From a bacterium (GTDB lineage: Bacteria; Armatimonadota; JACIXR01): DNA of 64,000 nt. This document shows, piece by piece, positions 8,078-31,660 of this stretch (the stretch's first letter is position 1; each line of letters starts with the position of its first letter). Both the position numbers and the translations under genes were made by a program. Under the pieces are notes generated by a model, which saw nothing but the letters and a program-made list of their open reading frames with translations, had not been told where the DNA came from and searched no databases. The stretch is from assembly GCA_014360495.1 (NCBI GenBank), contig JACIXR010000006.1:124001-188000 (forward strand). The letters run 5' to 3'.

Positions 8078-8920
8078 TCAAGGATAATCGCTGAAATTGT
8101 CGTCGGTCTCCAAGGGTTTTCTCGCTACTCGCGACCGACGAAATCCCCCTTCCTCTCTCAATATCTCAAAACATCCAAATCCCTGTGAGTTCTTCGCCCC
8201 TAAACCCGCATCCCAACCAAGCTTTATCAACTCCGGCTCTCCCCTTATCTTGTATATCCCCATCCACCCCTTTATCCATGTCCCTTTGTAGTTTATTATC
8301 TTCTCGTCTCCCCTCCCCACCTTTATCGGCTCAATAATAAATTCCTCACTCCCTCTGTATTCTCCATATATAACTTTGTATTTCTTTATCAAATTCTCCT
8401 TTATTAGACGAGAAAACTCCTCCTCCCTTGGATTGTAATAGTATGTCTTCCGCCCTCCCGTGGCGGTCATAAGAGTGGAATAAACCGTCATAGGCGATAG
8501 CATCCTTATCGTCTCTTCCTCCCTTACCTGGGGCGTGAACTTGACCCCTACCCACTCTAAATACAGCTCGTTCCTAGCTAACCTCAGTGTGTGTAAACGC
8601 ACGAGCGTCTCCGCTAATCCCTCAAGCATCTCATGATAGGGTGATGAGATGACGAGATAAAGGGAGGGAGGAAAGATTAGTTTATCGCCTTCCCTCCGCG
8701 CCTTCGCTATTATGCGGGAGAAGGTGAAAAGACGAAAACAACGCTTCTCGTAGGGGAAACCCTCACTATGAAGTTTATCGGCTAATTTTGAGGGAAGATT
8801 GGCATATATGAAGGATTGAACTATGTAGTTGTAGTGAAGGGGAAGCTCCACTGACCTCTCAGATTGTAATAGTATTTCAAGACGCAAGTTGGTGGGAACA
8901 CCTCCGTTTTTTAAAACCAT
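8078..8920 (-). CDS. cas6: Cas6 endoribonuclease (CRISPR-1 associated)
   Basis: A 280-residue RAMP-fold protein that cuts pre-crRNA within repeats. It has the Cas6 N-terminal pattern LRLEILLQSERSVELPLHYN, the segment LSPMTVYSTL, and the C-terminal glycine-rich loop LGAKNSQGFGCFEI. It is transcribed towards CRISPR-1 and ends 117 bases before it, so CRISPR-1 repeats are its likely substrate. It is clearly different from the second Cas6 at 28083-28874, in line with the different repeat families. No ribosome-binding site is seen before the ATG; a TTGACA lies at 8953-8948. The C-terminal tail after the glycine loop is unusually long and charged. Confidence 0.9.
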   Translation of the reverse strand: MVLKNGGVPTNLRLEILLQSERSVELPLHYNYIVQSFIYANLPSKLADKLHSEGFPYEKRCFRLFTFSRIIAKARREGDKLIFPPSLYLVISSPYHEMLEGLAETLVRLHTLRLARNELYLEWVGVKFTPQVREEETIRMLSPMTVYSTLMTATGGRKTYYYNPREEEFSRLIKENLIKKYKVIYGEYRGSEEFIIEPIKVGRGDEKIINYKGTWIKGWMGIYKIRGEPELIKLGWDAGLGAKNSQGFGCFEILREEGGFRRSRVARKPLETDDNFSDYP

Positions 8921-12439: not shown

Positions 12440-14037
12440 ATCACCATTCCACAATGGTTCGATTGAGACGAATGATTAAGAAACAAGGATTTATACAGTT
12501 TGAATAGTTTCCATTCCACTATGGTTCGATTGAGACTGTATACTTTGGTCTTTCTCATCGGATTTCAGCAATCCATTTTCCATTCCACTATGGTTCGATT
12601 GAGACTATCAGGAAAAATCCTTATAAAATAGAGCCTTTTACTATTTCCATTCCACTATGGTTCGATTGAGACTGACAAGATGATGACAATAGCAGTTGAC
12701 AAACTTGTAATTTCCATTCCACTATGGTTCGATTGAGACACACTCAAAGGCGTCCGAGTTTCCTTACTGTCCCCTTTGTTTCCATTCCACTATGGTTCGA
12801 TTGAGACTAGCAAGAAAGAAACTTGACAAGGTTGCCAAGGCAAAATTTCCATTCCACTATGGTTCGATTGAGACACTGAAGGTTGTTGGACACACACTGG
12901 GCAGACTTGCCCGATTTCCATTCCACTATGGTTCGATTGAGACTTCTTGTTAGAAAGGCGTGCGACTATGGTCAGGAGTATATTTCCATTCCACTATGGT
13001 TCGATTGAGACAATACCATCCCGTCTGCAACGCCATCGCCCACGGGTATTTCCATTCCACTATGGTTCGATTGAGACCGATTTCCCAGGTCCTAACCTGC
13101 TCAATGTTAACCTCGTTATTTCCATTCCACTATGGTTCGATTGAGACGAGGCAGAAGAAATAAAGGGGCAAATTTATGTGAGAATTAAAGACAATTTCCA
13201 TTCCACTATGGTTCGATTGAGACTAAAGGAGGTGTTTTTGATGCGTGTAGAGTATGACAGTTTCCATTCCACTATGGTTCGATTGAGACCTCCAGATGGG
13301 TGGACTATTTTGCCTCAGCGGGAGCAGGTTTCCATTCCACTATGGTTCGATTGAGACCTCTGCCACGGGGAAAATCTAAACTCATTATGCCTAATGACGT
13401 TTCCATTCCACTATGGTTCGATTGAGACAACATTGACTTACAATGCAACAGGTTCAATACCAGCATTTCCATTCCACTATGGTTCGATTGAGACTTATGA
13501 GGCTATCCAGACTTATTTGAACACTTTATCCATTTCCATTCCACTATGGTTCGATTGAGACCAAACAAGCAAAGAAGGAGGTGAACAAGAATGACCCAAC
13601 CTCTATTTCCATTCCACTATGGTTCGATTGAGACGAGATGGAACTAAAAGGTCTCTCACGCAAGGCGTGGGATTTCCATTCCACTATGGTTCGATTGAGA
13701 CTGTGCCAGCCTGTCGGCGTCTTCTGGCGTGTATCCGAGCATCATTTCCATTCCACTATGGTTCGATTGAGACTAGAACAGGGCACCCGTCTCCTAGGAG
13801 TGTTGGTCCTATTTCCATTCCATTATGGTTCGATTGACAGATTAATTGGGAGGAGTTTCAAGAGAAGAAGCTGGAATTTCCATTCCATTATGGTTCGATT
13901 GACCTGAAGAGGGCGAGAGGCGGTATATCCAGCTATGCGAATTTCCATTCCACTATGGTTCGATTGAGACGGTTCCTTCGGCTGGTGGAAGCCGCGAACG
14001 AAGTCTGATTTCCATTCCACTATGGTCCGATTGAGAC
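12440..14037 (-). CRISPR. CRISPR-2: about 24 repeats downstream of the type III-A operon
   Basis: The 30-base repeats begin ATTTCCATTCC and end GGTTCGATTGAGAC on the + strand; on the - strand the end is GGAATGGAAAT, the crRNA-handle side. Spacers are about 35-46 bases. The leftmost repeat (12440-12469) is degenerate. Near the leader, repeats at 13811 and 13876 share CATTATGG and lack two bases (GATTGAC), and the last repeat (14008-14037) has a T-to-C change. The leader lies at right, so transcription is leftward. Confidence 0.97.
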
Positions 14038-14431
14038 CCAGTTTTCACACTGTTATTTTTATTTATTTTCAATCTTCTTTTATTAATTATATCATCAAAT
14101 ATATATTATGCAACTATTTTCTTTTAGAAATTCTTCTCTTCAATCTTTTTCCCTCTCTCCCTTTACTTTTCTCTAACTCAATTTTTCCCTATTTTCCAAA
14201 AATCTCCGATAACGCATTTTCCCTTAGGAGGTCTTTGGAAATTGATTTTTAAAAAATCCCTTTAATATTTGCATATATCAACAAGTTGAAAGACAATTAC
14301 CTAATTAAAGCTATATTTTTGTCTTATATCATTAAATATCATCAAAAATCCTCTAAAATCACAAAATTGAGGTTTACATTTTTGAAATAAAACCAAATGG
14401 TGTTACGAATTTTCTCGCGATCTTTGGAAAT
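14038..14431 (-). promoter_or_regulatory. CRISPR-2 leader (394 bp, shared with CRISPR-4)
   Basis: An AT-rich block directly follows the last repeat. It is colinear and nearly identical (three differences seen) to 31267-31660; its first 191 bases also match 22374-22564. The motif TCTTTGGAAAT occurs as a direct repeat at about 14231 and 14421. The remaining 14432-14504 leads to the end of the CARF-HEPN gene with nothing recognisable. Confidence 0.85.
14086..14113 (-). promoter_or_regulatory. CRISPR-2 pre-crRNA promoter
   Basis: On the - strand TTGCAT (14113-14108) and TATAAT (14091-14086) are separated by 16 bases. Transcription would begin about 40 bases before the first repeat. The same elements occur at equal offset in the leaders of CRISPR-3 and CRISPR-4. 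Confidence 0.75.
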
Positions 14432-14504: not shown

Positions 14505-15797
14505 TCACACACCTGCTGAGGATAAAAGCCTATTTATCTCCTCTAAACTGTTCGGCAACTGCTTCGGCTCTTTGTATCCTCCTTTCAATATCTCTTTCAA
14601 ACAGTGCTTTATAAAGCCCTCTATCCTTGCCTTGATTATCGTATCATATTCCTCCTTTTTAATGCTCCTGAATCCGTGGGCGAGAATGCTCTGATTTCGC
14701 CACCTCAACGCATCCTTCAAATCATCCTCGCTTCCCTTGAAAAACTTTCCTACCTCATCACCTAACTCACAGAGCAACTCGTAATCCTCCACCAATCCGA
14801 GCTTTATCTTCCCGTCCTTTCTCTTTTTCTCATATGTTTCCTTCAATTTTTTTGGAATTTTCTCTATATCCACATCCCAAGCTTTTATCTCATGACACAG
14901 CAACAACCTAAGCTGAGCAAGCGCCTCCATAGCCCTGTAAAGCCTCGCAGTTGCATCATCAAATCTTCCCCTCACCGCACAGCGCTCCGCGTTCAAAAGC
15001 AAATCCTGAACAATAGCATATTGGGAATGCTTGTCCTTTGAATAGATGGTGATTTCCCTTTCCTCAACTTCCTTCTCGAAATCCTTCTCAAGCATCATCC
15101 TATCTGCAGCTACCCTATCCCAGAAGGAAACATAATCATTCCAAAACGCCTTCTTAAAGGGCTCAATACGTATAATAGCATTTATAGAATCATAAGCATC
15201 CCAGAGCCTAAACGCATTGATTATTCTCCGTTTCTTCTTTAAATCCTCTCGCAAATCAGTGGGAAAATGATAATTTACGAGGGCGGAACTAATGTTCTCC
15301 TCGGCGCTCGTATAATGGTAATATTTAAGAAGGGAATCAACTAGCGAGAGCAATTCCTCATAGTAAGGGAAGGAAAGATGGATTTTGCAAGTTGTTTCGC
15401 CTTCTTTTACCGCTACCAGGTTTCTTCTAATCCCCGTCGTCAAAAAAATTCCTAAATTCAAATGGGTGGCAACCCAGAAAAGAGAGGCGGACATCGTCTT
15501 CGTCCCTCCTGTGTAATCCACTACTATATCTGCTCCCGGTTTATCCCTTTTCAAATCTTCAATCTTGTTGAGCATCCTGCTTATACAACTCTCGGGGTCA
15601 TCTGGTTTGACCATTAGTATTTCGTGCTTGATTTCCCCCGTTTTACTTAAAATAGAGGGCAGGGTAGTATCAGAGCCTTGTGTTTGTCCATCAGCCTCAG
15701 TGCAGATGAACAAAACGAAATCGGGCTTTATCCTGTTAATGGCAGTGACCAAGGGTTCTGGGCTTCCGCCAACCGTCAAAACCAAAATCTTTTCCAT
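14505..15797 (-). CDS. csm6: CARF-HEPN CRISPR effector, Csm6-like (Cas02710/TIGR02710 type)
   Basis: A 430-residue protein that probably acts as a cyclic-oligoadenylate-activated RNase. The N-terminal CARF-like domain shows MEKILVLTVGGSPEPLVTAI and DYTGGTKTMSASLFWVATHL, the signature of the TIGR02710 family. The C-terminal half is helical and contains ALRWRNQSILAHGF with Arg-x6-His, the catalytic HEPN motif. It is the last gene of the III-A operon, starting 3 bases beyond csm5, so Cas10 would make its activator. It may be a Csm6 relative rather than a true orthologue. Confidence 0.85.
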   Translation of the reverse strand: MEKILVLTVGGSPEPLVTAINRIKPDFVLFICTEADGQTQGSDTTLPSILSKTGEIKHEILMVKPDDPESCISRMLNKIEDLKRDKPGADIVVDYTGGTKTMSASLFWVATHLNLGIFLTTGIRRNLVAVKEGETTCKIHLSFPYYEELLSLVDSLLKYYHYTSAEENISSALVNYHFPTDLREDLKKKRRIINAFRLWDAYDSINAIIRIEPFKKAFWNDYVSFWDRVAADRMMLEKDFEKEVEEREITIYSKDKHSQYAIVQDLLLNAERCAVRGRFDDATARLYRAMEALAQLRLLLCHEIKAWDVDIEKIPKKLKETYEKKRKDGKIKLGLVEDYELLCELGDEVGKFFKGSEDDLKDALRWRNQSILAHGFRSIKKEEYDTIIKARIEGFIKHCLKEILKGGYKEPKQLPNSLEEINRLLSSAGV

Positions 15798-15800
15798 TGT

Positions 15801-16901
15801 CTATCTCACTTCCTGCAAAAGCACCCAGCCGAACGGAGTATAAGTATATCTTTCTTTTTCTTTTCTCTTCAAGAACCTTCTCGTCATAGGAAACCTTTCC
15901 CTATGGCTCCTTTTGAAGAAATGTTGCCTTATATCTTCCCTTAAATCTTCTGGGAGAGCCAACCATATCGTCGTGGAGGGCAAGCCTCCACCCCATCCTA
16001 TCCTCAATAAATAACCCTTTCCCTTCGTATCCTTCAAAAGCCATTCATAGAAACCCTTTGAAACTTTCTCTCCCTCTTGCAATTCCGCCTCCGCAACCTT
16101 GCGATAGAAGGCGTCAACCTTTGAGAGGAAATCCTCAAAGCTATTGAACAAAGGATTTCCCGCCCTTTTGAATAGCTCAAAAAGCGATTCATCAAATGAG
16201 ATATTAAGCTTCGTCGCCTGCATCTTTCTCACGAATTCAAGGTAAGTAGATATCTTAGGGCGAGGCTTCCCCCTCGCGAGCGTCTCCTCTTCTCCCACAC
16301 ATAGAGAATCCCTTTCCCAAGGTTCCGCATCGCTCACTTTTATTACCCTTAAAATATCCGTATTGGGTGACCTCTGCTTGTTCTCCAAGCGATAATCTTC
16401 AAATATATCCTTATCCAATTCGTTATCCATCTCTTTTGCTTTTTTCCTTTCCTCCTTTAATGCTGACCGCACCTTCCACAACAAATCACTGTTTCTCACC
16501 ACAGCATCATACCACAACGAGGTTCTCATTGCTCCCTTTATAGCTGTTCCCGGTATAAACGGTCTCTGATAGGCATCCCTCGTGAAGGGACGCATCTGCC
16601 TCCCCGCCGGAAGATGACAGACGAGCTCACAGGAATATAGGGCAATCCTCTCTATAAGGGGAGGAGAAAGAAGCCCTTTGTGGGAAAGATAATTTGTTAG
16701 GGAAAAGCCAGGCTGTTCAAATCCTTTTAGGAAATCAGGCAAAAGCCCCTTTTCCTGCAAGAACTTACCCAACTCCCCCTCCCTAATGACGAACAATTTC
16801 CCATCGTGAATTATATAATCAAAGGGGAAGAGCGCCTGAAACCTCCCGCCGATATGGATTGGCGACAAAGGCAATAATTTAAATTTATGCACCCTGATCA
16901 T
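15801..16901 (-). CDS. csm5: Csm5, type III-A RAMP protein
   Basis: A 366-residue RAMP that caps the 3' end of the Csm complex on the crRNA. It begins with KFKLLPLSPIHIGG and contains the hallmark YQRPFIPGTAIKGAMRTSLW near residue 112, plus a C-terminal glycine-rich segment LLRIGWGGGL. Its ATG overlaps the csm4 stop by 4 bases. The segment CHLPAGRQM just before the hallmark is encoded by a short inverted repeat (about 16592-16616) and looks inserted compared with usual Csm5. Confidence 0.92.
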   Translation of the reverse strand: MIRVHKFKLLPLSPIHIGGRFQALFPFDYIIHDGKLFVIREGELGKFLQEKGLLPDFLKGFEQPGFSLTNYLSHKGLLSPPLIERIALYSCELVCHLPAGRQMRPFTRDAYQRPFIPGTAIKGAMRTSLWYDAVVRNSDLLWKVRSALKEERKKAKEMDNELDKDIFEDYRLENKQRSPNTDILRVIKVSDAEPWERDSLCVGEEETLARGKPRPKISTYLEFVRKMQATKLNISFDESLFELFKRAGNPLFNSFEDFLSKVDAFYRKVAEAELQEGEKVSKGFYEWLLKDTKGKGYLLRIGWGGGLPSTTIWLALPEDLREDIRQHFFKRSHRERFPMTRRFLKRKEKERYTYTPFGWVLLQEVR

Positions 16902-17806
16902 CTCATTATCACCCCCACGGGGAAAGCAAATGCATAGCGGTAGACTTTGTGAGAAAATCCGTTCGGCGTCAAATCAACCAATTGCCCTCTAATTGGCTTG
17001 TAGAAAACCGAGCCCTCGCTCAACATCCAAATCCTTTTCCTCCTTCCCTGCCTTCTCTCAAATATTGAAGATGTCCATCCGCCCCGCAGGGATAGATTAT
17101 ATCTACAATTAGCGAGGTCTATTTCCTCGCTCGGTGCGGGAACAACGGGGCTGAGGGTGAGGATGGCGGATGAATCGGGAGGTGGGAATAGGCTTTTCTC
17201 CTCAATTTCCACTTTGAAGTAGCCATAGCCAAGGGAACGCTCCCCGCCAATTCCCATATCTCCCAAGAGCTGAAGGGCGCCCTTGAATTTCTCCAGCATC
17301 TCCTCAGCGTGGAGGCGAAGGAGGAAGAAGAGCCCGCTTCCCTCTGGGAAGAAAAGGGCGGAGCGATGGTAAATCTGCGAGCTCATGTTTAACCTATCCA
17401 GCACCACGCTCGGCAGAACCTCAACCTCTGGCTCAAATTTCTCAAATGGGTAGGAGATTTCTTCCCCTTTTATCCATTGTGTAAATGTTTGCAAGGGGAT
17501 GAATTTGCGTTTCTTCAACTCTTTTCTGAACTTTTCTTGGATTCTTGGCGTGGTGAGGGGAGGTGGGAAGAAGAGGATGTCTTTGTTAAATGGGAAAGCG
17601 GAGGAGATGAGGAACGGTGGGGAGGAGAGGAAAGAATTTAAGAGGGATTCAAGCTGGTCCTTACCGAAGAGGGCGCCATATGCGTTGCAGAAGGCGGAGA
17701 ACAACAGGTCGGCAGGAACATAGGATTGGGTTGCCTCCAATCCTATCCCTGGCTCGCCTATATGGAAGGGGGAAATCGGCTTGAGCTTAACGAGATATTC
17801 TTTCAT
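16898..17806 (-). CDS. csm4: Csm4, type III-A RAMP protein
   Basis: A 302-residue RAMP that binds the 5' handle of the crRNA next to Cas10. It has KLKPISPFHIGEPGIGLE at the N-terminus, YVPADLLFSAFCNAY near residue 30 and the glycine-rich motif MGIGGERSLGYGYFKVE. The start overlaps csm3 by 20 bases and the end overlaps csm5 by 4, so the genes are translationally coupled. Confidence 0.92.
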   Translation of the reverse strand: MKEYLVKLKPISPFHIGEPGIGLEATQSYVPADLLFSAFCNAYGALFGKDQLESLLNSFLSSPPFLISSAFPFNKDILFFPPPLTTPRIQEKFRKELKKRKFIPLQTFTQWIKGEEISYPFEKFEPEVEVLPSVVLDRLNMSSQIYHRSALFFPEGSGLFFLLRLHAEEMLEKFKGALQLLGDMGIGGERSLGYGYFKVEIEEKSLFPPPDSSAILTLSPVVPAPSEEIDLANCRYNLSLRGGWTSSIFERRQGRRKRIWMLSEGSVFYKPIRGQLVDLTPNGFSHKVYRYAFAFPVGVIMR

Positions 17807-18596
17807 TATCAGAACTGGCTATAAAATCGGCTATCTCCTGAAGCTTAGAAAGCGCTCCATCTATATCTTCCACTTGCCATTGCTTTTTGAACTCCTCATT
17901 CCCCGTGGCATACCAATCTCCCTTGCGACATTCAATCGTTGAGAGCTTAAATTTGACTTTTCCATAGCCACGGGAGCCGTGTCCACCGAGATAATCGTCC
18001 TCCAAGAGGCGCATAGCGGTGAAGAGATTTTTCAAATCCTCCTTCAAGTCTTCCTTTTTCTCAATGGTATAGATGATTTCAAGCTTGAAGAAGGAGCCGG
18101 CGGGAACCCTCTCAATTTGGCGAGGATTGGCGGCGGAAGTTATCCTATCAATGGCGTTCTCAAATTTCCATTCGGTAAAGCGAAGCCCCGTTTCTATTTC
18201 CTCCAATTTCTCCTTGCTCTCATCTGTGAGGAAAAGGTCTCGCACGGCGAGGCGTGAGGGGATATTTTCTCCTTCATCCTTCATGGGAGTGGAGCCGAAG
18301 AGACGACATATCTCGCAGTTCTTATCTGAGCAGGCGTGTATCATCACTGGTTCATCATTAGGTCCAATATTTCTATTTATTGGCTTCTTCATTTTCCTCT
18401 CCAAGAGGGAACGCATCTTTCCCTTGAGGGAGCTTCCCGGGACATAGGGGAATTCACTGATGGGGTCGCGCACAACTGGCAAATCTACCCCGCCTATTTT
18501 CATAGCCTCCCTCCTCGCCCCTATGTGAAGCCCGGTTAAACATTTCATCTTACCTTCAATGACAACCTTGCCGAGAATCGGACGCTCTCCCTGCAT
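17787..18596 (-). CDS. csm3: Csm3, backbone RAMP and target-RNA nuclease
   Basis: A 269-residue RAMP forming the Csm filament backbone, which cuts target RNA every six bases. It carries CLTGLHIGARREAMKIGG followed by VDLPVVRDP, with Asp38 at the position of the known catalytic Asp, and FPYVPGSSLKGKMRSLLER. The Cys-rich segment CSDKNCEICRLFG is typical, and GGHGSRGYGKVKF is the C-terminal glycine loop. RNase activity is therefore expected. It starts 2 bases past csm2. Confidence 0.95.
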   Translation of the reverse strand: MQGERPILGKVVIEGKMKCLTGLHIGARREAMKIGGVDLPVVRDPISEFPYVPGSSLKGKMRSLLERKMKKPINRNIGPNDEPVMIHACSDKNCEICRLFGSTPMKDEGENIPSRLAVRDLFLTDESKEKLEEIETGLRFTEWKFENAIDRITSAANPRQIERVPAGSFFKLEIIYTIEKKEDLKEDLKNLFTAMRLLEDDYLGGHGSRGYGKVKFKLSTIECRKGDWYATGNEEFKKQWQVEDIDGALSKLQEIADFIASSDNERISR

Positions 18597-18598
18597 AG

Positions 18599-19030
18599 CT
18601 ACTCTTCACCTCCATGAAACTTATGGTAAGCAACAAGCCCCTCAATGAATTGAGAGAGCTTTTTAAAATCATCCAAATCCTGAACCTTGTCAATCGCCCT
18701 ACTTAGCACTTCATGAAGAGGCTTGAGTTTATTCTGCCTCCCTGCTGCATATGCAAGGTGAATCTTCAATAGCTGAACTTCCTGACTTATATCTATACTC
18801 CCCTTACGAGTCCTGACTGCTGACCTAATCTTTTCAAAGGCATCCAAAACCCTTCTCAGCTGGGACATCCTCACTTTTTTCGCTAAAACCTCGCCTATTT
18901 TGTTAACATGGTCCAGCAACTCCTTGTTTTGGGCTTCCTTCAAACTTGGAAGACGATGGAGGAATTCCTTACAGCTCTTATAAACTCTATGGTCTTTTTG
19001 CTGGGCTTCTTCCCTTCTCTCAGAATTCAT
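18599..19030 (-). CDS. csm2: Csm2, small subunit of the Csm complex
   Basis: A 143-residue, almost fully helical and basic protein of Csm2 size and position between cas10 and csm3. Csm2 lines the crRNA-target duplex. The C-terminal part (LLKIHLAYAAGRQNKLKPLH) resembles the conserved Csm2 segment KLAYAAGR. It starts immediately at the cas10 stop. Confidence 0.88.
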   Translation of the reverse strand: MNSERREEAQQKDHRVYKSCKEFLHRLPSLKEAQNKELLDHVNKIGEVLAKKVRMSQLRRVLDAFEKIRSAVRTRKGSIDISQEVQLLKIHLAYAAGRQNKLKPLHEVLSRAIDKVQDLDDFKKLSQFIEGLVAYHKFHGGEE

Positions 19031-21361
19031 TTAACTTGCACCTCCTTTTTCTCTTATCAATAAGTCTATCCAATAAACTAAATAAGGGAAGAAGGGCATG
19101 TTTTCCGCCTCCAACAAAGTGGAGACAGTGAATTTATGCCATTTATCTTCCAAATCGTTTTTCTTAAAGCTCTCCCTTATCCTTCCAACTATATAGACGA
19201 GATAAATATAGGGATATATGCTCTTTTCCTTTTCCCAGCTCCTGCTAATTTCCAAAAGCCTATATAGGAAGGAGCGGGGAAGCACGAGCTCATAATGACC
19301 ATCTTTTAATTCAGCGAAGTCTCTGAGAAATTCCTCCTTCCATCCCTTTATCTTAAAGCAATCCTCCCAAAGGGGCTCATTCTCTCTTTTCTGGAAGAAT
19401 GAGAACCTATTTCTTCCCGAATCCTTCGCCGATTCCTCCATATCCCCGCTCATCTTCGCAATTTGATAAAGTGGCTCCTTGGGGTCGCAAACGAGATAGC
19501 CTGCGGAAATTGTGAATGAGGGGTTTTGAGTGAAAGAGGAGAACTTTTCTTGAATTTCAAATGCGCTCTCTAAAACATCGTTCCAAGCTCCAACTATGAA
19601 CGCATCATCCCCGCCAGAATAAACAACCGCTACTTCCTTTCCCTTTAATATATCGTCAATATATGATTTAAAGAAAATGGTGAGAAAGCGGGAAAGCGTG
19701 GCAACTCGGGAGAAGGAATAGCGATTCTCTGGAATTCCAGCGCCGAAAATCATTCCCAAATGGTCAACATCTAACCTGAGTACGCCAATCCTTGAGGCAC
19801 CAATGCCTGCCTGAGCGAATCCATCAAAATCCCTAACATCGCCATTCTCGTCCTTACTGGCGTAACGCGCGAGGGTAAGGAAATAGGTATGGGGGTGGAA
19901 GGGCAAATTGTCCGGCTTGGCGTTTATCAAGAATATCCTATCGGCTCGAGAAAGATAGGAATTCAACTCTCTTCTATCAATCAACTTATAGCGGGCATCG
20001 GGTAAAGGGATATCGCCCTGAGGATGGGCGACGAAGCAGGGTTCTTTTATTTTAGGGATAGCGCCGCCAAGTTGGAAGAGGGTATAGCAGAGGGGACAGA
20101 GATGGACTCCTTCCTCTATTTCCTTGTATATCTCGGATGGAGCTTTACACACATCGCATTCGTAAAAGGTGCCCTCGCAAGCCTCACATTTACCTTTATT
20201 GACCTCAATGGGCTTAAAGAGCTCCTCTTTCAAATTGAAGAATTTACGGTTTTTATCCATTTCCAAGCGCGAGAAGAGCTCCTTTCTTTTTTGGAGCAAA
20301 GGTTGGCTATTCAAGTCCTGAGGGGAGAGGGGAACCCATTGGAGGGCTAAATAGAGCCTTCCAGCGAACATGTCCCACAGCCATTTGTTGAGGGAATTCC
20401 TAAGCTTTGAGAGGAGATTTTCCGCATCGGGTTTATTGGGGAGGAGGATTTCAAATTGAGCGCCTCCGCAGAAGATGAGGTTAGATGGGGGAAGGTTGAA
20501 CTGTTCCAAGAGCAGGGCGGCGATGTGGTGGGAGAGGAGCTCAATGTAGAGGGAGCGAGCCCTGAGGCTTTTGAGAGCTCCTTTTGATGTGATTGTATAG
20601 ATGAACTTTTGGACGCCGGATAAATCGCCTCTTAGGTAGAGGAAGCCATTATCTTGGGAGTCGTAGAGGGAGAGGGCGAGGGCGCAGGTGAGTTTAAGGT
20701 GGTCGTAGAGGGAGATATCGGGCTCATTTTCTGGGTTGATTTCGTCCTGGGACAATACAATTATCGTTTCTGAGGGGATGAAGGTTAGGAGTTCCTCTAA
20801 GAGGGATAGGAGAGAGGGGATGGAGGTGATGGTGGGGATTCTTGAATTGAGTTTATTGAGGATTAGCTTATATTGAGATGTTTCAGCGGAAGCTGCTTCT
20901 TTGTTTGTTTTAGGGTAGAGGAAAGAAGGTGTGAGGGGTTGGACAGACCAGTAGGAGGGGTTGGGAGATTGTTTGTCTTGGAGGTGGATTTCCGAGAGGA
21001 TGGAGCGGAGTGGAGTTTTCCTTTCCCATTTTCCTTGTTCACCAGCGGAGATGTCCTCTTTTTCTAGGCGTTCTTGGGCGCTCAGTTGGTCGGCTTGGCG
21101 GAGGAGGGAGAGGGTTTTCTCCAGGGCTGGGTAGGGGGAGGAGGAGTGGTGGTTATAGATAAGTCTTTCAACATAATTTTTAAGATTAGGGGGTAAGAGA
21201 CTTGGGTGGAAGTTGGTGGCGGAGAGCCAATCAGCGCCCCACTCTTCGTGTTTTTTAGCAGATGGTTCATCGTTAGCTCTTTGGACTAACTTACCGATGT
21301 CATGTAATAGGGAGGCGAGGGTGAGGGCAAGTCTTTCCTCCTCAGGCGATAAACTATTCAC
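19031..21361 (-). CDS. cas10: Cas10/Csm1, type III-A signature protein
   Basis: The 776-residue large subunit. The HD nuclease motif is SLLHDIGKL (His20-Asp21). A zinc-finger region has CEACEGTFYECDVC and CPLC. The palm domain carries VVYSGGDDAFIVG with GGDD at residues 583-586, so cyclic-oligoadenylate synthesis is expected. I chose the GTG at 21361 because GGAGGTG lies 5 bases before it; the longer ATG-initiated form lacks such a site and would begin inside the promoter region. It heads the III-A operon, 97 bases left of the CRISPR-3 old end. Confidence 0.95.
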   Translation of the reverse strand: MNSLSPEEERLALTLASLLHDIGKLVQRANDEPSAKKHEEWGADWLSATNFHPSLLPPNLKNYVERLIYNHHSSSPYPALEKTLSLLRQADQLSAQERLEKEDISAGEQGKWERKTPLRSILSEIHLQDKQSPNPSYWSVQPLTPSFLYPKTNKEAASAETSQYKLILNKLNSRIPTITSIPSLLSLLEELLTFIPSETIIVLSQDEINPENEPDISLYDHLKLTCALALSLYDSQDNGFLYLRGDLSGVQKFIYTITSKGALKSLRARSLYIELLSHHIAALLLEQFNLPPSNLIFCGGAQFEILLPNKPDAENLLSKLRNSLNKWLWDMFAGRLYLALQWVPLSPQDLNSQPLLQKRKELFSRLEMDKNRKFFNLKEELFKPIEVNKGKCEACEGTFYECDVCKAPSEIYKEIEEGVHLCPLCYTLFQLGGAIPKIKEPCFVAHPQGDIPLPDARYKLIDRRELNSYLSRADRIFLINAKPDNLPFHPHTYFLTLARYASKDENGDVRDFDGFAQAGIGASRIGVLRLDVDHLGMIFGAGIPENRYSFSRVATLSRFLTIFFKSYIDDILKGKEVAVVYSGGDDAFIVGAWNDVLESAFEIQEKFSSFTQNPSFTISAGYLVCDPKEPLYQIAKMSGDMEESAKDSGRNRFSFFQKRENEPLWEDCFKIKGWKEEFLRDFAELKDGHYELVLPRSFLYRLLEISRSWEKEKSIYPYIYLVYIVGRIRESFKKNDLEDKWHKFTVSTLLEAENMPFFPYLVYWIDLLIREKGGAS

Positions 21362-21388
21362 ACATTCACCTCCATAGATATTTTTTAG

Positions 21389-21418
21389 ATTATACCAAAA
21401 ACACAAAAAGTAGTGCAA
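21389..21418 (-). promoter_or_regulatory. Promoter of the type III-A operon
   Basis: On the - strand TTGCAC (21418-21413) and TATAAT (21394-21389) are separated by 18 bases. The start site would fall near 21382, giving a 20-base leader with GGAGGTG before the GTG of cas10. Confidence 0.7.
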
Positions 21419-21457
21419 CTTTTTTAAAACTTTACTCTCCAAAATTGTTCAAAAGAG

Positions 21458-22373
21458 CTTACCACTCCACTATGGTTCGATTGAGACGGCTGGATATCCG
21501 CTTTGATACTTCTCGCTCGTGAGATTTCCATTCCACTATGGTTCGATTGAGACGGGCAAAGGGTAAGGGTGGATGGGGTGAGAATTTACAAAGCAATCGG
21601 ATTTCCATTCCACTATGGTTCGATTGAGACTCTTCATTGCTACCATCGGTTCAGGCACCACGGTGGAATTTCCATTCCACTATGGTTCGATTGAGACTGG
21701 ACAAAGCGGAGAATGGGGTGGTATTTCCTATACCCCTATTTCCATTCCACTATGGTTCGATTGAGACCCTGGAGTACCAACTTGACTTGGTAGCAAGACG
21801 ATAATTTCCATTCCACTATGGTTCGATTGAGACCCTCCCCAGGTTGTGGAAATAATATTTTGGGATAAATTTCCATTCCACTATGGTTCGATTGAGACAC
21901 ACAGAGCCGTCTGCCGTCCCCGAGTGGTATAAGACATTTCCATTCCACTATGGTTCGATTGAGACAAGCCGTTTGCGAAGCTGATTCAGTTATTCGCAGA
22001 CAAAATTTCCATTCCACTATGGTTCGATTGAGACCGTTTCTTTCACATAATTTCGTCATTCTGGTGAGCTCATTTCCATTCCACTATGGTTCGATTGAGA
22101 CTTAAACTTAATTGGATTTATTTTAGTATTTGGGGCAATGGTAGAATTTCCATTCCACTATGGTTCGATTGAGACCGTGGATGCGACTCCGAACAGCCAT
22201 CCGGGGGGCTATTTCCATTCCACTATGGTTCGATTGAGACTTTTGTAAATTGCCAATTTTAGAATTTTTGATTATAAATTTCCATTCCACTATGGTTCGA
22301 TTGAGACTATACAGTTGGGTATGACGTTGGCGATGAGGCTACGATTTCCATTCCACTATGGTTCGATTGAGAC
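21458..22373 (-). CRISPR. CRISPR-3: 14 repeats between the III-A and I-B operons
   Basis: Repeats are the same 30-base unit as CRISPR-2 and CRISPR-4. The leftmost copy (21458-21487) is degenerate in its first half, marking the old end; the rest are uniform. Spacers are about 36-47 bases. The leader is at the right. Its transcript runs towards the cas10 promoter on the same strand. Confidence 0.97.
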
Positions 22374-22564
22374 CCAGTTTTCACACTGTTATTTTTATTT
22401 ATTTTCAATCTTCTTTTATTAATTATATCATCAAATATATATTATGCAACTATTTTCTTTTACAAATTCTTTTCTTCAATCTTTTTCCCTCTCTCCCTTT
22501 ACTTTTCTCTAACTCAATTTCTCCCTATTTTCCAAAAATCTCCGATAACGCATTTTCCCTTAGG
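22374..22564 (-). promoter_or_regulatory. CRISPR-3 leader (191 bp, truncated relative to the others)
   Basis: Nearly identical to the first 191 bases of the CRISPR-2 and CRISPR-4 leaders. The promoter elements recur at 22449-22444 (TTGCAT) and 22427-22422 (TATAAT) on the - strand. Homology stops at CCCTTAGG, where the cas4 relic begins, whereas the other leaders continue for another 200 bases. Confidence 0.85.
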
Positions 22565-22695
22565 TGAGTTAAGGTATGTTCCATCCTTATCCCCTTGCTG
22601 TATAGCCATAGTTTACGAGGGCATATCAATAAATAATTTACCATCAACCCACCTATCCTCAGTTCCTCTAATTCCTCTTGTGTTAATCCTTTCAA
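22565..22695 (-). pseudogene. cas4: cas4, N-terminal stub only
   Basis: Directly after cas3 an open frame starts at a TTG that overlaps the cas3 TGA (TTGA). It reads LKGLTQEELEELRIGGLMV, then NYLLICPRKLWLYSKGIRME and HT. This is the beginning of Cas4, including the first iron-sulphur-cluster Cys in LLICPRKLWLYSKGI. After about 40 codons it runs into the CRISPR-3 leader, so the RecB-like nuclease domain and the three C-terminal Cys are absent. In type I-B operons cas4 is normally followed by cas1 and cas2; neither is found. The stub is 131 bases long. Confidence 0.8.
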
Positions 22696-24938
22696 TCTAT
22701 CAATATTCCCTCCCTTCTTTCAAACTCTTTCAGTTCTTCCTCCGCGAATCCTATTTCCTCATTATAAGGCAGCCCGCAAACGAGAAAAATCTTCCCCCTC
22801 ACTTCTAATTTGTTGAACAATCCTTTCCCTTCCTTCTCGCTATAAGCTATCCACCAAATGGGAACGGGGACGAGATGCCGGAGAACAAAGCTTATGTCTA
22901 ATTCCCCTTTACATTGCGCGATGACATCCCAGGGAACAACATCAATAGTGGGACAATGTATATCTCGGGTTTTGAAAGCCCTTCCTTCCTCTTCATTGAA
23001 TCTGATCTCCTCAGGACTGTGCCCAAATACCACCGTCTCGCGAAACAGCTCGGGAAGTGGAGAGCGAATATTCAATTTTTCATCTTCGTATGCCATTGAT
23101 GTTATTTCAATAAGCTCCCCCTGAGAGAAAGCTTTCTCCTCCAACAGCTCCCAACTCCTCTCCATAATATTTTTCCTTTCTTTATAAGGATTGAAATCTG
23201 GAGGGCGAAAAACATAGAGATAGTAATCTCCCTTGTCCCCCCTTCTATTCAATCTTCCAGCCCTTTGAACAACGCCATCTATTGGAGCTAATTCTGTGAA
23301 CATCGCTTGGGATGAGATATCTAAACTCACCTCTATCACTTGAGTAGCTACCAACACGAAGGGCTCATCGCTCTTTAATCTTTTTATTATCTCTCGTTCC
23401 TTCCTTCTCCTGTGGGCATAGGTGAAGCGAGAATGGATGAGAAGGCAGGGTAAATCCTCATTTCTCAATTGACGATAGGCACTTTGAGCCCTTCTGACCG
23501 TGTTAAATATGAGAAATTGCTTTTCTCCACTTTCCGTCCTCTTTTTTATCTCCTCCAAGACACTGTCGTTGAGATTGCCTTCCTCGTCAATCAAAAAATC
23601 GTTCTTCTTTTTCAATGTGAAGCGAACGATTTCGTTTCCTTCCTCATCCTCAATTAACGGATAATCCTTCAGGTCCAATTCTTTGAGGAGGAATTCAGGA
23701 AGGGTGGCGCTCATTATGAGATGTGGTATTTGCATTTTCCTAAGAAGGCGGAAAGATTCCCTTAAATTGGCGAGCATCAAATAGTCGTAAGCATGGATTT
23801 CATCAAATACTATCGCTGATGTTTGAAGGTTTCCGAAGGCGAAATCGGATTGAGGAAATCCGTGAACAAAGGAGAAGAGTATATGGTCCACGGTGGTCAC
23901 GACTACTGGCTTCCCCATAACCTCACCCCAAAGATTTTCTTCCCTCAAAAATGGAAGGAGCTCTTCATTTAGGACCTCTTGTTCTGTTCCAAGCTTGAGT
24001 TTTTGCAGTTCAGCCTGCTCCAATAGGCTTCTTCCGTGATAGAGGGCTACAGCTTCATCGCCGAAGAGCTCTCCCAACCTTTCCCGCATAGCATTTGATG
24101 TAACTTGAGTAGGCATAGCGAAGATGAGTCGCTCAACCGTTCCGTTTTCCCAAAGGTTGCGAAACCAGAGGAGGGCAGCTTCCGTTTTGCCTCTCCCGCA
24201 GGGAGCACGCAAAACGATGTATTTCTCTTTGGAGGCAGATAATTTCTCTTGGAATGGATAAGCTCTTCTTCCTCTTAAGATTTCCTCAATGGAAGGGGGC
24301 TTAAAGGATGGCGCCTTTACCTCCTCTCCAAGGGAAAAAGCCTTGCTTGCAAGCCAATCGCTCAACTTGAGGAGGGAAAGAAAATAGGTGAAAACGCTTT
24401 TTATCTTCACCTCTCCCTCTTCCTTGCATTTTTTATTTATCATCTCCTGTAGGGCAAGGACCATCTTCTTGGCTTCTCCAAGACAAAAAGAGGGAACAGA
24501 TAGAGAGGGGTGGATTACTATTTTAATATCCGGCTCGGAGGAGAAGACATCGGAATGAAGGCAAGAATGATGGGCGAGAATGAGGCAAAGGATGAGTAGG
24601 GGTTCATCGCCTCCGAAAACATCTTTTAGGTTAGCCTTTTTCAACTTATCATACGCTATGGGGAGGGCGATGAGACGATGGGATACAGGTGATTGTTTGT
24701 TTTCTTTTATCGCCCGCTGAAACTGTTCACTCGCCTTACCGACATCGTGGAGACGCACTGCCCAACGCAGGTTGTCCTTGGCTAACTCAACATCAATTTT
24801 CCAGCGGTGGCAAAAGCTGGCGAATGTGGGACGATTTAGGAGCTCTTCCAAAATGCTCAAACAGGCATTTGTGTGCTCCTCAAGGGATTGAGAGGAGCCA
24901 TCCTCTCTCCTTTTGCCGAGAAGTTCTTTAGGATACAT
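22692..24938 (-). CDS. cas3: Cas3, HD nuclease-helicase of the type I-B system
   Basis: A 748-residue protein with an N-terminal HD nuclease (EEHT near residue 22, RLHDVGK with His64-Asp65, AHHSCLHSD). The SF2 helicase follows: Walker A APCGRGKTEAALLW, DEAD-box variant VFDEIHAYD, SATLPE, and motif VI QRAGRLNRRG. Cas3 is recruited by Cascade to degrade the target DNA strand. All core motifs are present. It starts one base past the cas5 stop and overlaps the cas4 stub by 4 bases. Confidence 0.95.
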   Translation of the reverse strand: MYPKELLGKRREDGSSQSLEEHTNACLSILEELLNRPTFASFCHRWKIDVELAKDNLRWAVRLHDVGKASEQFQRAIKENKQSPVSHRLIALPIAYDKLKKANLKDVFGGDEPLLILCLILAHHSCLHSDVFSSEPDIKIVIHPSLSVPSFCLGEAKKMVLALQEMINKKCKEEGEVKIKSVFTYFLSLLKLSDWLASKAFSLGEEVKAPSFKPPSIEEILRGRRAYPFQEKLSASKEKYIVLRAPCGRGKTEAALLWFRNLWENGTVERLIFAMPTQVTSNAMRERLGELFGDEAVALYHGRSLLEQAELQKLKLGTEQEVLNEELLPFLREENLWGEVMGKPVVVTTVDHILFSFVHGFPQSDFAFGNLQTSAIVFDEIHAYDYLMLANLRESFRLLRKMQIPHLIMSATLPEFLLKELDLKDYPLIEDEEGNEIVRFTLKKKNDFLIDEEGNLNDSVLEEIKKRTESGEKQFLIFNTVRRAQSAYRQLRNEDLPCLLIHSRFTYAHRRRKEREIIKRLKSDEPFVLVATQVIEVSLDISSQAMFTELAPIDGVVQRAGRLNRRGDKGDYYLYVFRPPDFNPYKERKNIMERSWELLEEKAFSQGELIEITSMAYEDEKLNIRSPLPELFRETVVFGHSPEEIRFNEEEGRAFKTRDIHCPTIDVVPWDVIAQCKGELDISFVLRHLVPVPIWWIAYSEKEGKGLFNKLEVRGKIFLVCGLPYNEEIGFAEEELKEFERREGILID

Positions 24939-25628
24939 TTATCGGGATTGGATGGCTACTCTATTGTATAGGGGGACGCCTTCGTTATTGAAGAAATAGA
25001 GCTCCAAAGGGAAGTTGAGGGTGAAAGGGAAGCGTTGGGGAAGGGAGAAGATGGGAGGTTTTTCTTTCTCCACATAGGTCAAAGGGTAGGCTATATATTC
25101 GCATCCCTCATATATGCCAAAAATCAAGCCCCAAACTTCTCTTCCTTCCCCCTTTTTCACTTCTCCCTCCCATACCACATCCACGATAACCATATCGTCG
25201 GATTGACCAAGGTAGAGGGGGCGGAATGGATTGCGGAGGGAGGAGAGCAAATCCCGAAGGAAGTCTTCTTTTTCGCTCGCTATGTAGAGCATATAAGAGG
25301 GGCGGACGAGGAAGTAGCGATACATAGGGGAGGAGGGGAAGGAGGTTATCCTTCCCGCTCTCCTTTCCTCTTTTTTCAATTTGAGGAGCTTAGCCAACTC
25401 TCTTTGGCATTTGTCCAATTCCAGTGGTCTTATGTTCATCAGGAGGAGCTTTTCCGCTTCCTCGGCGAATTGGGGATACTCCGTCAGGTAGATTCCCTTG
25501 GCGTTACCCAGCATTCCTATGATGGTGGTGAAAGGAGGAATTGGGTGGGTGAGGACGAGGGATGTGGATTTTGGATGGCGGAAGCAGGCGAAATAGGGAA
25601 GGGTTAGCTCTACCTTAGCGCCCAGCAT
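24939..25628 (-). CDS. cas5: Cas5, type I-B Cascade subunit
   Basis: A 229-residue RAMP that caps the crRNA 5' handle. The N-terminus (ELTLPYFACFRHPKSTSLVL, then THPIPPFTTIIGMLGNAKGI) is the Cas5 signature; the final segment LYNRVAIQSR is also typical. It lies between cas7 and cas3 with one-base gaps. Confidence 0.9.
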   Translation of the reverse strand: MLGAKVELTLPYFACFRHPKSTSLVLTHPIPPFTTIIGMLGNAKGIYLTEYPQFAEEAEKLLLMNIRPLELDKCQRELAKLLKLKKEERRAGRITSFPSSPMYRYFLVRPSYMLYIASEKEDFLRDLLSSLRNPFRPLYLGQSDDMVIVDVVWEGEVKKGEGREVWGLIFGIYEGCEYIAYPLTYVEKEKPPIFSLPQRFPFTLNFPLELYFFNNEGVPLYNRVAIQSR

Positions 25629-25629
25629 C

Positions 25630-26571
25630 CTAGAGAATGAAATTCTTCAGGCTTTCCAAAGCTTCCCTTGGTGTATCCAGTAGCTCAACGCCTTCTTCTT
25701 TAAGGAGCTCTTTTACCTCGTCTCCGTTGGTTATTACACCGTCAAGAAGACCGGCGAAAATCTTCAGACTTTCCTTCTTGACTTCTCTGATTATCTGCTG
25801 GAGCACAGTGAGGTTTAGTTTGCAGTCATTCTCAAGGGAGAGTGCTTTCTGCAGGCGATGGGAGTAGTTGTTTTGAGCGGCGGCAAGTAGGATATCGGGA
25901 GTGAAGTCGGTGAGGAGGCGAGCCTGCTTTGAATAATCGGAGAAATCCGCGATTGCTGAAAGCAAGAGGCTTAGGCGTTGTTTCCTTTCCTCCTCTGGGA
26001 CGACTTCCTTGAATTCAATTCTATTTATGTCGTCTTCTCCTCTTTTCAGTTCCTCTATTCTACCCAGCCTGAGCAAATCAACGCAGACGCCTGCCTTATA
26101 GATGTTGACGGCAAGTTCAACATTAACGATGTCCCCCTCAAGTTGACCTTCTTGCAGTCTATGCCTGCGGGTGAGGAAATCAACAACTGCGTTTTCATCA
26201 TAGGGGAGGAGACCCATTGCTGGGGATACTTTGACGGGTGAAAGGCGAATGTCCGCTCCTCCTCTCTTGCCTGCTTCTCTTCTTATAACCCCCATATAGC
26301 CGAAGAGGTCGCAGAGGATGCAATTTCTTACATCTCTGCAGGTTTCCCCTATATCGTTGGGCGTGCAAACGGAGGAAGAAGGGACTTCTCGGCGAATTGC
26401 TTCCTTCAGATAGAAGCGCATCGCCTGACCGCTGACATAGGGATACTCTTTTCCTTGCCAGCGATATCTCTTGATGTCAATCAGCTGGCTCCCGCCCTCG
26501 CCGGAGTTGAGGTTGGTCAAGCCGGTCTTGGAGAGCCACACCAAACTTACCGCTTTCAAATCATTTCTCAT
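25630..26571 (-). CDS. cas7: Cas7, type I-B backbone subunit (Cst2/DevR type)
   Basis: A 313-residue RAMP that polymerises along the crRNA. The motif TGLTNLNSGEGGSQLIDIKR and the following YPYVSGQAMRFYLKEAIRRE are characteristic of the Cst2/DevR branch of Cas7. A Cys-rich segment (CRDVRNCILCDLFGYMG) and the DIRLSPVKVSPAMGL loop are also present. It overlaps cas8 by 11 bases. Confidence 0.92.
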   Translation of the reverse strand: MRNDLKAVSLVWLSKTGLTNLNSGEGGSQLIDIKRYRWQGKEYPYVSGQAMRFYLKEAIRREVPSSSVCTPNDIGETCRDVRNCILCDLFGYMGVIRREAGKRGGADIRLSPVKVSPAMGLLPYDENAVVDFLTRRHRLQEGQLEGDIVNVELAVNIYKAGVCVDLLRLGRIEELKRGEDDINRIEFKEVVPEEERKQRLSLLLSAIADFSDYSKQARLLTDFTPDILLAAAQNNYSHRLQKALSLENDCKLNLTVLQQIIREVKKESLKIFAGLLDGVITNGDEVKELLKEEGVELLDTPREALESLKNFIL

Positions 26572-28117
26572 CTTGTGTCTTCCTCCTTTCTTGTAATTTC
26601 ATTTTGGCATATTCCACGCTTATGAATATGCCAAGCGTGCTTAGTAGGTCTTGAAATATCGTTTCCTTTTTGTTCACCATATTAACCAGCTCGCTAAGGG
26701 AATCGGGGGAAAGAAATTGTGCCTTAGTTTCAGCGAAGTCTATTCCAGCGAGTAGATGCCCTATTTCTTTCAAGGAGCTGAGCAAATCGGAGCTGGTTCT
26801 AACCCTATCCAAAAAGTTATAGAGGACGGAGGGCTTGTTGCGGAGGTCGCTTATAAGGGCTATCGTTCGCCCTGCTTTCCGCAGAATCTCCAATTCATGT
26901 TCAGTGAGCATTTCATTACACCTCCATATTTTTATAAAATTGAATAAATTAGTCTCAAGATTTTTGGGAACGAAGGGTATCCAGCGAGGATTGGGCTGTA
27001 GGCGGCGCGCGAAGGAAGTGTAATCATCCTGAAGAAAACTGCGGGAAAGTTCTTCCCTCAAGTTATTCGTGAGTTTCCCATTTTCCGTATTAAATTTACC
27101 TTCTCCTACATTCCTCAACACAATCAAACCTAACAAATCGCTATAGGGTTTGAGGTCAGATTGAACGCACTCAACCAAGGCATCTTTTACCTTCTTTGAG
27201 ATGTAAAAACCTTGAAAGTCCACATTCTTCATTCCACTTCCTTCCGGGATACGAAGCAGCCACCATTCCTCTGGGATGATTAGCGCCACTTCTTGCAGGC
27301 TCTTTACTTCTCTTTCGGCAACCTTCTGCAGTAAGTTCTCAAGGAAAGTGAGGAGAAGGGAGAAGCGAGAGGGTGGGGAATGAAGGGTTGGGAGCTTGAC
27401 ATTGGAAGTCTCTTCAGAACGGGCGAGCTCGGTTGATAGGCGGTTTTTAAGGCTTTGGAGCTTGTAGGGAGAGGAAGCGGGATAAGGAAGCCAGAGGAAG
27501 GAAACAGTTTGTTTAGGGGCAATCTCAACCCTGCTTCTATAAGGGAGGGAAGGGTCAGCCCAGCCGAGGCTGGCTATCAGATAGCAGAGGGGGCAAACGG
27601 AATAATAGGTCTTTTTGCCTCGCTTAACGAGATAAACGGAAGTGGTGAGGGAGGCTGCTTTAGTAACGAAAGGATAAATCCCCTGCGTGAGTTCAACTTG
27701 GGCGGGGAATCCCCCGCAGAGAAAACAGGTATTTTTGCCCCGAGGTTGTTCGGAGGGGAAAGCCTTCTCTAAGAGTTCCCTTCTTTCCTCTTCCCTATAT
27801 GTGAGGGGGAATTGGGCAGGAGGTTGTGGGCGGAAGGGAAGGTAATGCTTCCATTTTTGAACCTTTGTTCCACCTCGTTTGTCTTCCCGAGTGAATTGAA
27901 GATTTGTTTCTGTTATCTGCTTGATTGAATTTTCCAAAACTTCTATGAAACGCTCTCTGTTAAGGACAGCGATATCCAAGCCATAAGCGTTGAGTTGGGT
28001 ATCAACGGCATCGGGAAATTGTTGATGAAGGTCATCTAAGAGCTTATGGAAGTAAAGGAGGGCGTTATCAAGGTAGGGGTCGTTATAAAATGGGATGGTG
28101 ATTTGCAAGGGATTCAC
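26561..28117 (-). CDS. cas8: Cas8, type I-B large subunit (Cst1 type)
   Basis: A 518-residue protein in the large-subunit position. It shows the Cst1-type zinc-binding pairs CFLCGG (about residue 133) and CPLCYLIASLGWADPSLPY (about residue 175), plus a helical C-terminal region that may serve as the small subunit. Cas8 recognises the PAM and recruits Cas3. It is the most divergent gene of the operon, but position, length and the two CxxC pairs agree. Its start overlaps cas6 by 35 bases. Confidence 0.85.
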   Translation of the reverse strand: MNPLQITIPFYNDPYLDNALLYFHKLLDDLHQQFPDAVDTQLNAYGLDIAVLNRERFIEVLENSIKQITETNLQFTREDKRGGTKVQKWKHYLPFRPQPPAQFPLTYREEERRELLEKAFPSEQPRGKNTCFLCGGFPAQVELTQGIYPFVTKAASLTTSVYLVKRGKKTYYSVCPLCYLIASLGWADPSLPYRSRVEIAPKQTVSFLWLPYPASSPYKLQSLKNRLSTELARSEETSNVKLPTLHSPPSRFSLLLTFLENLLQKVAEREVKSLQEVALIIPEEWWLLRIPEGSGMKNVDFQGFYISKKVKDALVECVQSDLKPYSDLLGLIVLRNVGEGKFNTENGKLTNNLREELSRSFLQDDYTSFARRLQPNPRWIPFVPKNLETNLFNFIKIWRCNEMLTEHELEILRKAGRTIALISDLRNKPSVLYNFLDRVRTSSDLLSSLKEIGHLLAGIDFAETKAQFLSPDSLSELVNMVNKKETIFQDLLSTLGIFISVEYAKMKLQERRKTQDEK

Positions 28118-28874
28118 CCCCTGGTAAATCTTGTTTAAAGGAGAGCATACCGAAACCGCAGGCGTTGTGCTCTCCTAAGCCGACATCATAGGCGAGATTA
28201 ATGAGGTGGTTATCTCCTCTAATGATTAGTTCCATATCCCAGCCGCGCACATCTATTCCCTTGATTTTGAAGAGACGGGAGCGGAAGGGGGGCTTAACTT
28301 CAATATCAAGCTCACCTGGAGGGAGCCAAAAGGCTTCTGCTTTGTTTAAGAGGTTATCTTTAAGGAGTTTGGGGAAGAGTTCCTCATCTGGGGAGAGGTA
28401 TCTTTTGAGGAATTTCTCACCTTGTTTAAATCCTGTGGAGACGGAGATAGGGGAGAGGGTGGAGAAATGGGAGGTTTGGGGGAAGGAGGGGTTGGAGATG
28501 GAGAGGACTTGGAGGATTTCAACTTCATGTGGTCCGAGTTTAATGGAGGGGAAGTGGAGGAGTTGTTCGGCAAGGAGTTGGCATATGAGTTGGACCGGGG
28601 AGGAGATGAACCATTTGATTTCCCCTTTAACAAGGAGCCCTTTTTTGATAGCTTTTTTATTTGATGGGTAGAGGAGGGAGAAGTTGAAGGGTTTATAGCG
28701 TTTATTTTTCAGGCTAACACCTTCTTGGTGGAGCCAAGAGGCGAAGTTTTGGCTTTTAGCGCCGATGAGGCGATAGATGAGACCTCTGAGCCAATCTAAG
28801 TAATTCCAAGGGAGGAGAATCTCCCTAGGGGTAGAGAAGACAACCATCAATCTCATATTTGAAAGTTTTACCAT
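28083..28874 (-). CDS. cas6: Cas6 endoribonuclease of the type I-B operon
   Basis: A 263-residue Cas6 heading the I-B operon. It has MRLMVVFSTPREILLPWNYL, the mid-protein LSPISVSTGF and the glycine-rich loop DVGLGEHNACGFGMLSF. It probably processes the repeat shared by CRISPR-2, -3 and -4, and by necessity may also supply crRNAs to the III-A complex, which has no cas6. The start could also be the ATG six codons later (MRLMVV). It begins about 150 bases left of decayed CRISPR-4 repeats. Confidence 0.9.
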   Translation of the reverse strand: MVKLSNMRLMVVFSTPREILLPWNYLDWLRGLIYRLIGAKSQNFASWLHQEGVSLKNKRYKPFNFSLLYPSNKKAIKKGLLVKGEIKWFISSPVQLICQLLAEQLLHFPSIKLGPHEVEILQVLSISNPSFPQTSHFSTLSPISVSTGFKQGEKFLKRYLSPDEELFPKLLKDNLLNKAEAFWLPPGELDIEVKPPFRSRLFKIKGIDVRGWDMELIIRGDNHLINLAYDVGLGEHNACGFGMLSFKQDLPGGESLANHHPIL

Positions 28875-31266: not shown

Positions 31267-31660
31267 CCAGTTTTCACACTGTTATTTTTATTTATTTTCA
31301 ATCTTCTTTTATTAATTATATCATCAAATATATATTATGCAACTATTTTCTTTTAGAAATTCTTTTCTTCAATCTTTTTCCCTCTCTCCCTTTACTTTTC
31401 TCTAACTCAATTTTTCCCTATTTTCCAAAAATCCCCGATAACGCATTTTCCCTTAGGAGGTCTTTGGAAATTGATTTTTAAAAAATCCCTTTAATATTTG
31501 CAAATATCAACAAGTTGAAAGACAATTACCTAATTAAAGCTATATTTTTGTCTTATATCATTAAATATCATCAAAAATCCTCTAAAATCACAAAATTGAG
31601 GTTTACATTTTTGAAATAAAACCAAATGGTGTTACGAATTTTCTCGCGATCTTTGGAAAT
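31267..31660 (-). promoter_or_regulatory. CRISPR-4 leader with promoter
   Basis: The same 394-bp block as the CRISPR-2 leader, equal in length, with only three differences seen. The promoter on the - strand is TTGCAT (31342-31337) and TATAAT (31320-31315). Its right boundary ends at TCTTTGGAAAT, the same point as in CRISPR-2, after which the sequences differ completely. Confidence 0.85.

Follow-up and report, generated by a model that had tools for sequence, protein, structure and literature searches.

Why does a type I-B CRISPR-Cas operon run from cas3 into a fragment of cas4 and from there directly into a CRISPR leader, and can such a locus still acquire spacers? The window, that is the whole stretch of 64,000 nucleotides analysed here, lies on contig 6 of a draft genome of 2.55 Mb in 18 contigs, estimated as 97.2% complete. 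The arrangement very probably goes back to a recent illegitimate deletion that removed the adaptation module from a combined I-B/III-A locus, with the effectors left intact and acquisition lost. The order on the minus strand is L3-A3, cas6-cas8b-cas7-cas5-cas3, the cas4 stub, L2-A2, cas10-csm2-csm3-csm4-csm5-csx1 and L1-A1, where L denotes a leader and A its array. The features are given below in window coordinates; G001 is a MAG of the same genus (CALITO01).

31267..31660, minus strand: full-length leader L3 of array A3, 394 bp, 99% identical to L1
29226..31266, minus strand: CRISPR array A3, 30 repeats, of which the 19 nearest the leader are identical
28083..28874, minus strand: cas6 (Pfam Cas_Cas6_C E=6e-24; TIGR01877 E=1.9e-32)
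26561..28117, minus strand: cas8b (PADLOC Cas8b E=5.9e-78)
25630..26571, minus strand: cas7, type I-B (PADLOC Cas7b E=3e-33)
24939..25628, minus strand: cas5, type I-B (PADLOC Cas5 E=2e-16)
22692..24938, minus strand: cas3, HD and helicase, intact (TIGR01587 E=1.4e-87; TIGR01596 E=2.6e-14; 62% identical to G001)
22573..22695, minus strand: cas4 stub, the first ~41 codons from the TTG start to ...MEHT (PF01930; alignment with G001 Cas4)
22565..22572, minus strand: junction filler of 8 nt, TTAACTCA, matching neither cas4 nor leader (alignment with L1/L3 and G001 cas4)
22374..22564, minus strand: truncated leader L2, the 191 bp array-proximal half, with the extended -10 promoter-like element TGATATAAT (alignment with L1 and L3)
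21458..22373, minus strand: CRISPR array A2, 14 repeats, all perfect but the trailer-end one
19031..21442, minus strand: cas10/csm1, HD and GGDD, intact (PADLOC Cas10 E=2.2e-147)
15801..19030, minus strand: csm2, csm3, csm4 and csm5, type III-A, intact (PADLOC)
14505..15797, minus strand: csx1/csm6-like CARF-HEPN effector, intact (PADLOC CARF_HEPN E=2.7e-107)
14038..14431, minus strand: full-length leader L1 of array A1, 394 bp
12440..14037, minus strand: CRISPR array A1, 24 repeats, the leader-end repeat mutated and repeats 3-4 altered in their first three bases

Effector operons and the cas4 stub

Each effector gene has its full length and a matching frame, and the locus holds both the type I-B set (cas8b, cas7, cas5, cas3 and cas6) and the type III-A set (cas10 with csm2, csm3, csm4 and csm5). 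The cas4-cas1-cas2 module, which follows cas3 in G001, is represented by the cas4 stub only; by gene content the effector module is classed as type I-B and the whole is not classed as a complete I-B system. Interference should persist, since the domains and motifs of cas3 and cas10, the CARF-HEPN match of Csx1 and two Cas6 proteins are all present. The second Cas6 is divergent and is encoded just past A1 (8078-8920, minus strand, TIGR01877 E=4e-42); a divergent Cas6 is also kept in G002, a genome of a third species of the genus. No terminator-like site was found between cas3 and array A2, and transcription of the I-B operon may consequently now continue into A2 and into the III-A operon.

The start codon of the stub is the TTG at 22695, which lies within an ATTGA overlap with the TGA stop codon of cas3; the same overlap is found in the intact operon of G001. 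The initial annotation had read here the first 40 residues of Cas4, and the profile search agrees: the residues GLTQEELEELRIGGLMVNYLLICPRKLWLYSKGIRMEHT match the Cas4 N-terminus (Pfam Cas_Cas4, PF01930, E=7e-7, over the cut-off), the match (GLT...EHT) covering only N-terminal positions 2-26 or 2-30 of 160, and 32 of 39 residues are identical to the intact G001 Cas4. After about 41 codons the frame departs from cas4 and meets a stop 15 codons on, inside leader sequence. It retains only the first of the cluster cysteines and lacks both the C-terminal ones and the RecB-type nuclease motifs of Cas4 (PF01930); judged by these missing parts the frame is a remnant, not a Cas4. Compared with G001 cas4, 17 of the 39 codons carry silent differences and 7 encode another residue (pS 0.75, pN 0.09). 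Prolonged free drift would have erased the protein sequence of the stub, and by this measure the deletion is young compared with the split from G001.

The probable ancestral locus and the deletion junction

The intact order cas3-cas4-cas1-cas2-leader, suggested as something to look for in related genomes, is found in G001, one of two same-genus genomes compared. Its contig 27 (8254 bp) carries cas6-cas8b-cas7-cas5-cas3-cas4-cas1-cas2 plus a further 206 bp, and encodes a Cas4 of 175 aa, a Cas1 of 338 aa (TIGR03641, type I-B) and a Cas2 of 87 aa. Contig 33 opens with the last repeat of an array, followed by cas10-csm2-csm3-csm4-csm5-csx1. The Cas proteins of the window and G001 are 56-77% identical and stand in the same order, with repeats differing at two bases; in gene content the two differ only in the remainder of cas4, cas1 and cas2, which G001 keeps and the window lacks. 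No other related I-B locus was found in GTDB genome contigs. The I-B and III-A pieces of G001 sit on separate contigs, the former ending in leader-like sequence and the latter beginning with a terminal repeat, and because of these ends I-B/array/III-A is most likely the ancestral order, with the adjacency read across the assembly gap. The proposal that the deletion itself had joined the I-B operon to the array and the III-A module is therefore disfavoured.

L1 and L3 are 99% identical across 394 bp and have only the 191 bp nearest the array in common with L2. L3 also aligns end to end with the leader of G002 (L057:5148-5545), and since L1, L3 and the G002 leader all align in this way, the long leader is ancestral and L2 cut. 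In G001 the 206 bp that lie beyond cas2 align to the distal leader with a score of 50, a modest similarity that is reached by 0, 1 and 3 per 1000 dinucleotide shuffles against the leaders of G002, L1 and L3, respectively; this suggests that a long leader once followed cas2. The full leaders hold an inverted repeat, TTTCCAAAGATCTCC ... GGAGATCTTTGGAAA in G002 and less perfect in L1, the left arm of which is missing from L2. Conserved in the long leaders of G002, L1 and L3 are a distal-end motif, TTTCCAAAGATC, and this mid-leader inverted repeat, both possible protein-binding sites. Read by eye from the sequence, L2 retains TTGCAT-16-TATAAT with an extended -10, the counterpart in G002 being TTGACA-17-TATTAT. 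The consensus promoter scan did not list this element, as its -35 matches at 3 of 6 positions only. Since L2 keeps a promoter-like element matched in G002, array A2 is probably still transcribed.

Alignment with the L1 and L3 leaders and G001 cas4 places the last recognisable Cas4 base at 22573 and the onset of leader homology at 22564. The frame does leave cas4 for the leader as first described, although not at one exact base, the 8-nt filler lying in between. The proximal leader of A2 is still in place, no insertion sequence is present at the junction, and at the cas4 endpoint a few bases at most agree with the leader. Because the endpoints are without extended homology and are separated by the filler, the junction looks like the product of an illegitimate deletion and not of recombination between leaders. 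Adding the missing distal leader to the 1666 bp that separate the end of stub homology from the cas2 stop in G001, the comparison shows an estimated deletion of ~1.9 kb that took away cas1 and cas2 in full, the larger part of cas4 and the distal leader half. A short inverted repeat, CCTTA...TAAGG, surrounds the junction; fold-back templating from it was considered and set aside, as the repeat is too short to count.

The loss of cas4-cas1-cas2 had originally been ascribed to homologous recombination between leader copies, which would at the same time have brought the I-B operon next to A2 and the III-A module. Three leader copies do occur in the window and the junction lies inside one of them, but an exchange between leaders cannot yield a junction whose cas4 endpoint is without leader homology, and the contig ends of G001 point to the same order of modules before the deletion. 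The loss thus stands and the leader-recombination route is rejected as scarcely credible. A misassembly, in which near-identical leaders made the assembler skip a true cas4-cas1-cas2 segment, has in its favour the three leader copies of ~99% identity, the difficulty of assembling arrays, and the fact that contigs of both G001 and G002 do end at arrays. The skipped segment would however have to be absent assembly-wide, with Cas1 and Cas2 on no contig, and the cas4 endpoint is not a repeat and is followed by the filler. L2 moreover carries two private SNPs in its 191 bp, 90 and 148 bp away from the array; the second of them lies only 43 bp from the junction, and L2 is on this account not a borrowed copy of L1 or L3. 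An assembly error is consequently considered very unlikely.

Adaptation genes and the state of the arrays

The absence of cas1 and cas2 reported for the locus extends from the window to the whole assembly, where the recommended search of the remaining contigs recovered neither gene. Whole-genome profile searches gave no match to Cas1 (PF01867) or Cas2 (PF09827) at E<=1e-3 in any contig, while among 14 control genomes the same profiles hit their targets in 9 (Cas1) and 7 (Cas2), and tblastn with the concatenated G001 Cas4, Cas1 and Cas2 as query returned only the stub. No Cas4 apart from the stub was found in the assembly; a PF01930 match on contig 10 was discarded as a second Cas4, being below the cut-off and limited to the C-terminal part, in a 468-aa frame. 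Among 41 sampled genomes, drawn from the present one, its congeners and further members of the phylum, 21 have Cas3 over the curated cut-off, and Cas1 is missing in only two of these, the present genome and G003; the genomes are drafts. G002 (L079, L057) is likewise without Cas1 or an I-B operon, which may in part be an artefact of its fragmented assembly; it retains arrays and a III-A cas10 adjoining a hisG-like gene.

The leader ends of the arrays, described earlier as uniform, are so in A2 and A3. In A1, by contrast, the first repeat is mutated and two others start differently, and since the mutation of the first repeat is not found in the second, A1 has probably not grown since it arose. 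No copy of the repeat was found in the genome outside the three arrays. Nearly all of their repeats differ at two bases from the repeat common to G001 and G002, and because this derived repeat fills all three arrays, they would have been filled after the change, which places active acquisition in this lineage after the genus diverged and before the deletion.

The arrays show further irregularities. In repeats 3 and 4 of A1 (13811-13905) the initial GTC is replaced by AGG and CTG, and both carry the same internal G-to-A change, as if two integrations in succession had occurred 3 nt within the repeat; their neighbouring repeat on the leader side is normal. At its final position the repeat has T, C or A, partly in runs (A1 12507-13428, A3 29501-29933), as if this base were not always copied from the first repeat. 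Spacer 19 of A1 (12740-12777) and the newest spacer of A3 (31197-31236) overlap by 21 nt, AAAGGGGACAGTAAGGAAACT, on the same strand, from which it seems that a single invader locus was sampled on two separate occasions. Protospacer searches with array A3 in phages, and with two spacer cores in viral contigs, gave no match.

Two alternatives accept the deletion and concern what followed. Adaptation genes on an unassembled replicon or contig might serve the three arrays in trans. Acquisition in trans between types has been demonstrated in Flavobacterium columnare (PMC8092290), two of the three leader ends are uniform, and with 2.8% of the genome possibly missing a second cas1-cas2 pair could lie in the absent ~3% of the draft. 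Against such a supply stand the lack of Cas1 and Cas2 of any subtype in the assembly and the probable stasis of A1, and we regard it as very unlikely. That the leader ends are uniform in A2 and A3 is also compatible with arrays kept current without a canonical integrase of their own, by inter-array exchange or conversion or by an integrase borrowed from a mobile element, a reading that seems more improbable still.

The favoured explanation remains a recent illegitimate deletion. The ancestor would have carried cas6-cas8b-cas7-cas5-cas3-cas4-cas1-cas2, a ~394-bp leader, an array and the III-A genes cas10-csm2-5-csx1, and its single Cas4-Cas1-Cas2 set would have fed spacers to three arrays with one repeat and one leader. 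A ~1.9 kb deletion from about codon 41 of cas4 to mid-leader would then have taken the adaptation module in full together with the distal half of L2, sparing the array-proximal promoter and both effector operons. The cell is predicted still to transcribe its arrays, to make crRNAs with Cas6 and to interfere through Cascade-Cas3 and Csm/Csx1, and with Cas1 and Cas2 absent no new spacers would enter any of the three arrays. Old memories are probably usable and new ones not made.

Comparison with known systems

Loss of adaptation with interference retained is usually seen either as borrowing of Cas1 in trans or in decayed loci. A single deletion would here have cut off two effector types and three arrays together from new spacers, and so recently that the effector genes, the stub and the leader promoter are all still intact; a same-genus relative is available as the ancestral state. 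The species would thus be a natural adaptation knockout, in which it could be asked how long interference stays selected once the memory cannot be updated.

Type III and some type I loci without cas1-cas2 are served in trans by a different locus (PMC5294841; PMC8092290). The present locus resembles these in having effectors and arrays without local adaptation genes, but differs in that no second, supplying locus is found, Cas1 and Cas2 being missing assembly-wide. In the Mycobacterium tuberculosis Beijing deletion RD207, cas2, cas1 and more are taken from the CRISPR region, csm6, csm5 and most spacers are also removed and csm4 is truncated, while cas10, csm2 and csm3 stay; deletions of this region in M. 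tuberculosis are linked to IS6110 (PMC5310062). An intact relative and a unique junction removing cas1-cas2 place the present deletion in the same kind of event, and in both cases a deletion at a CRISPR region leaves a lineage without cas1. Loss of the adaptation module is thus already known as an event, of which this locus is a clean and recent instance; it differs from RD207 in that effectors and arrays are intact, no insertion sequence lies at the junction and the lost module was shared by two effector types.
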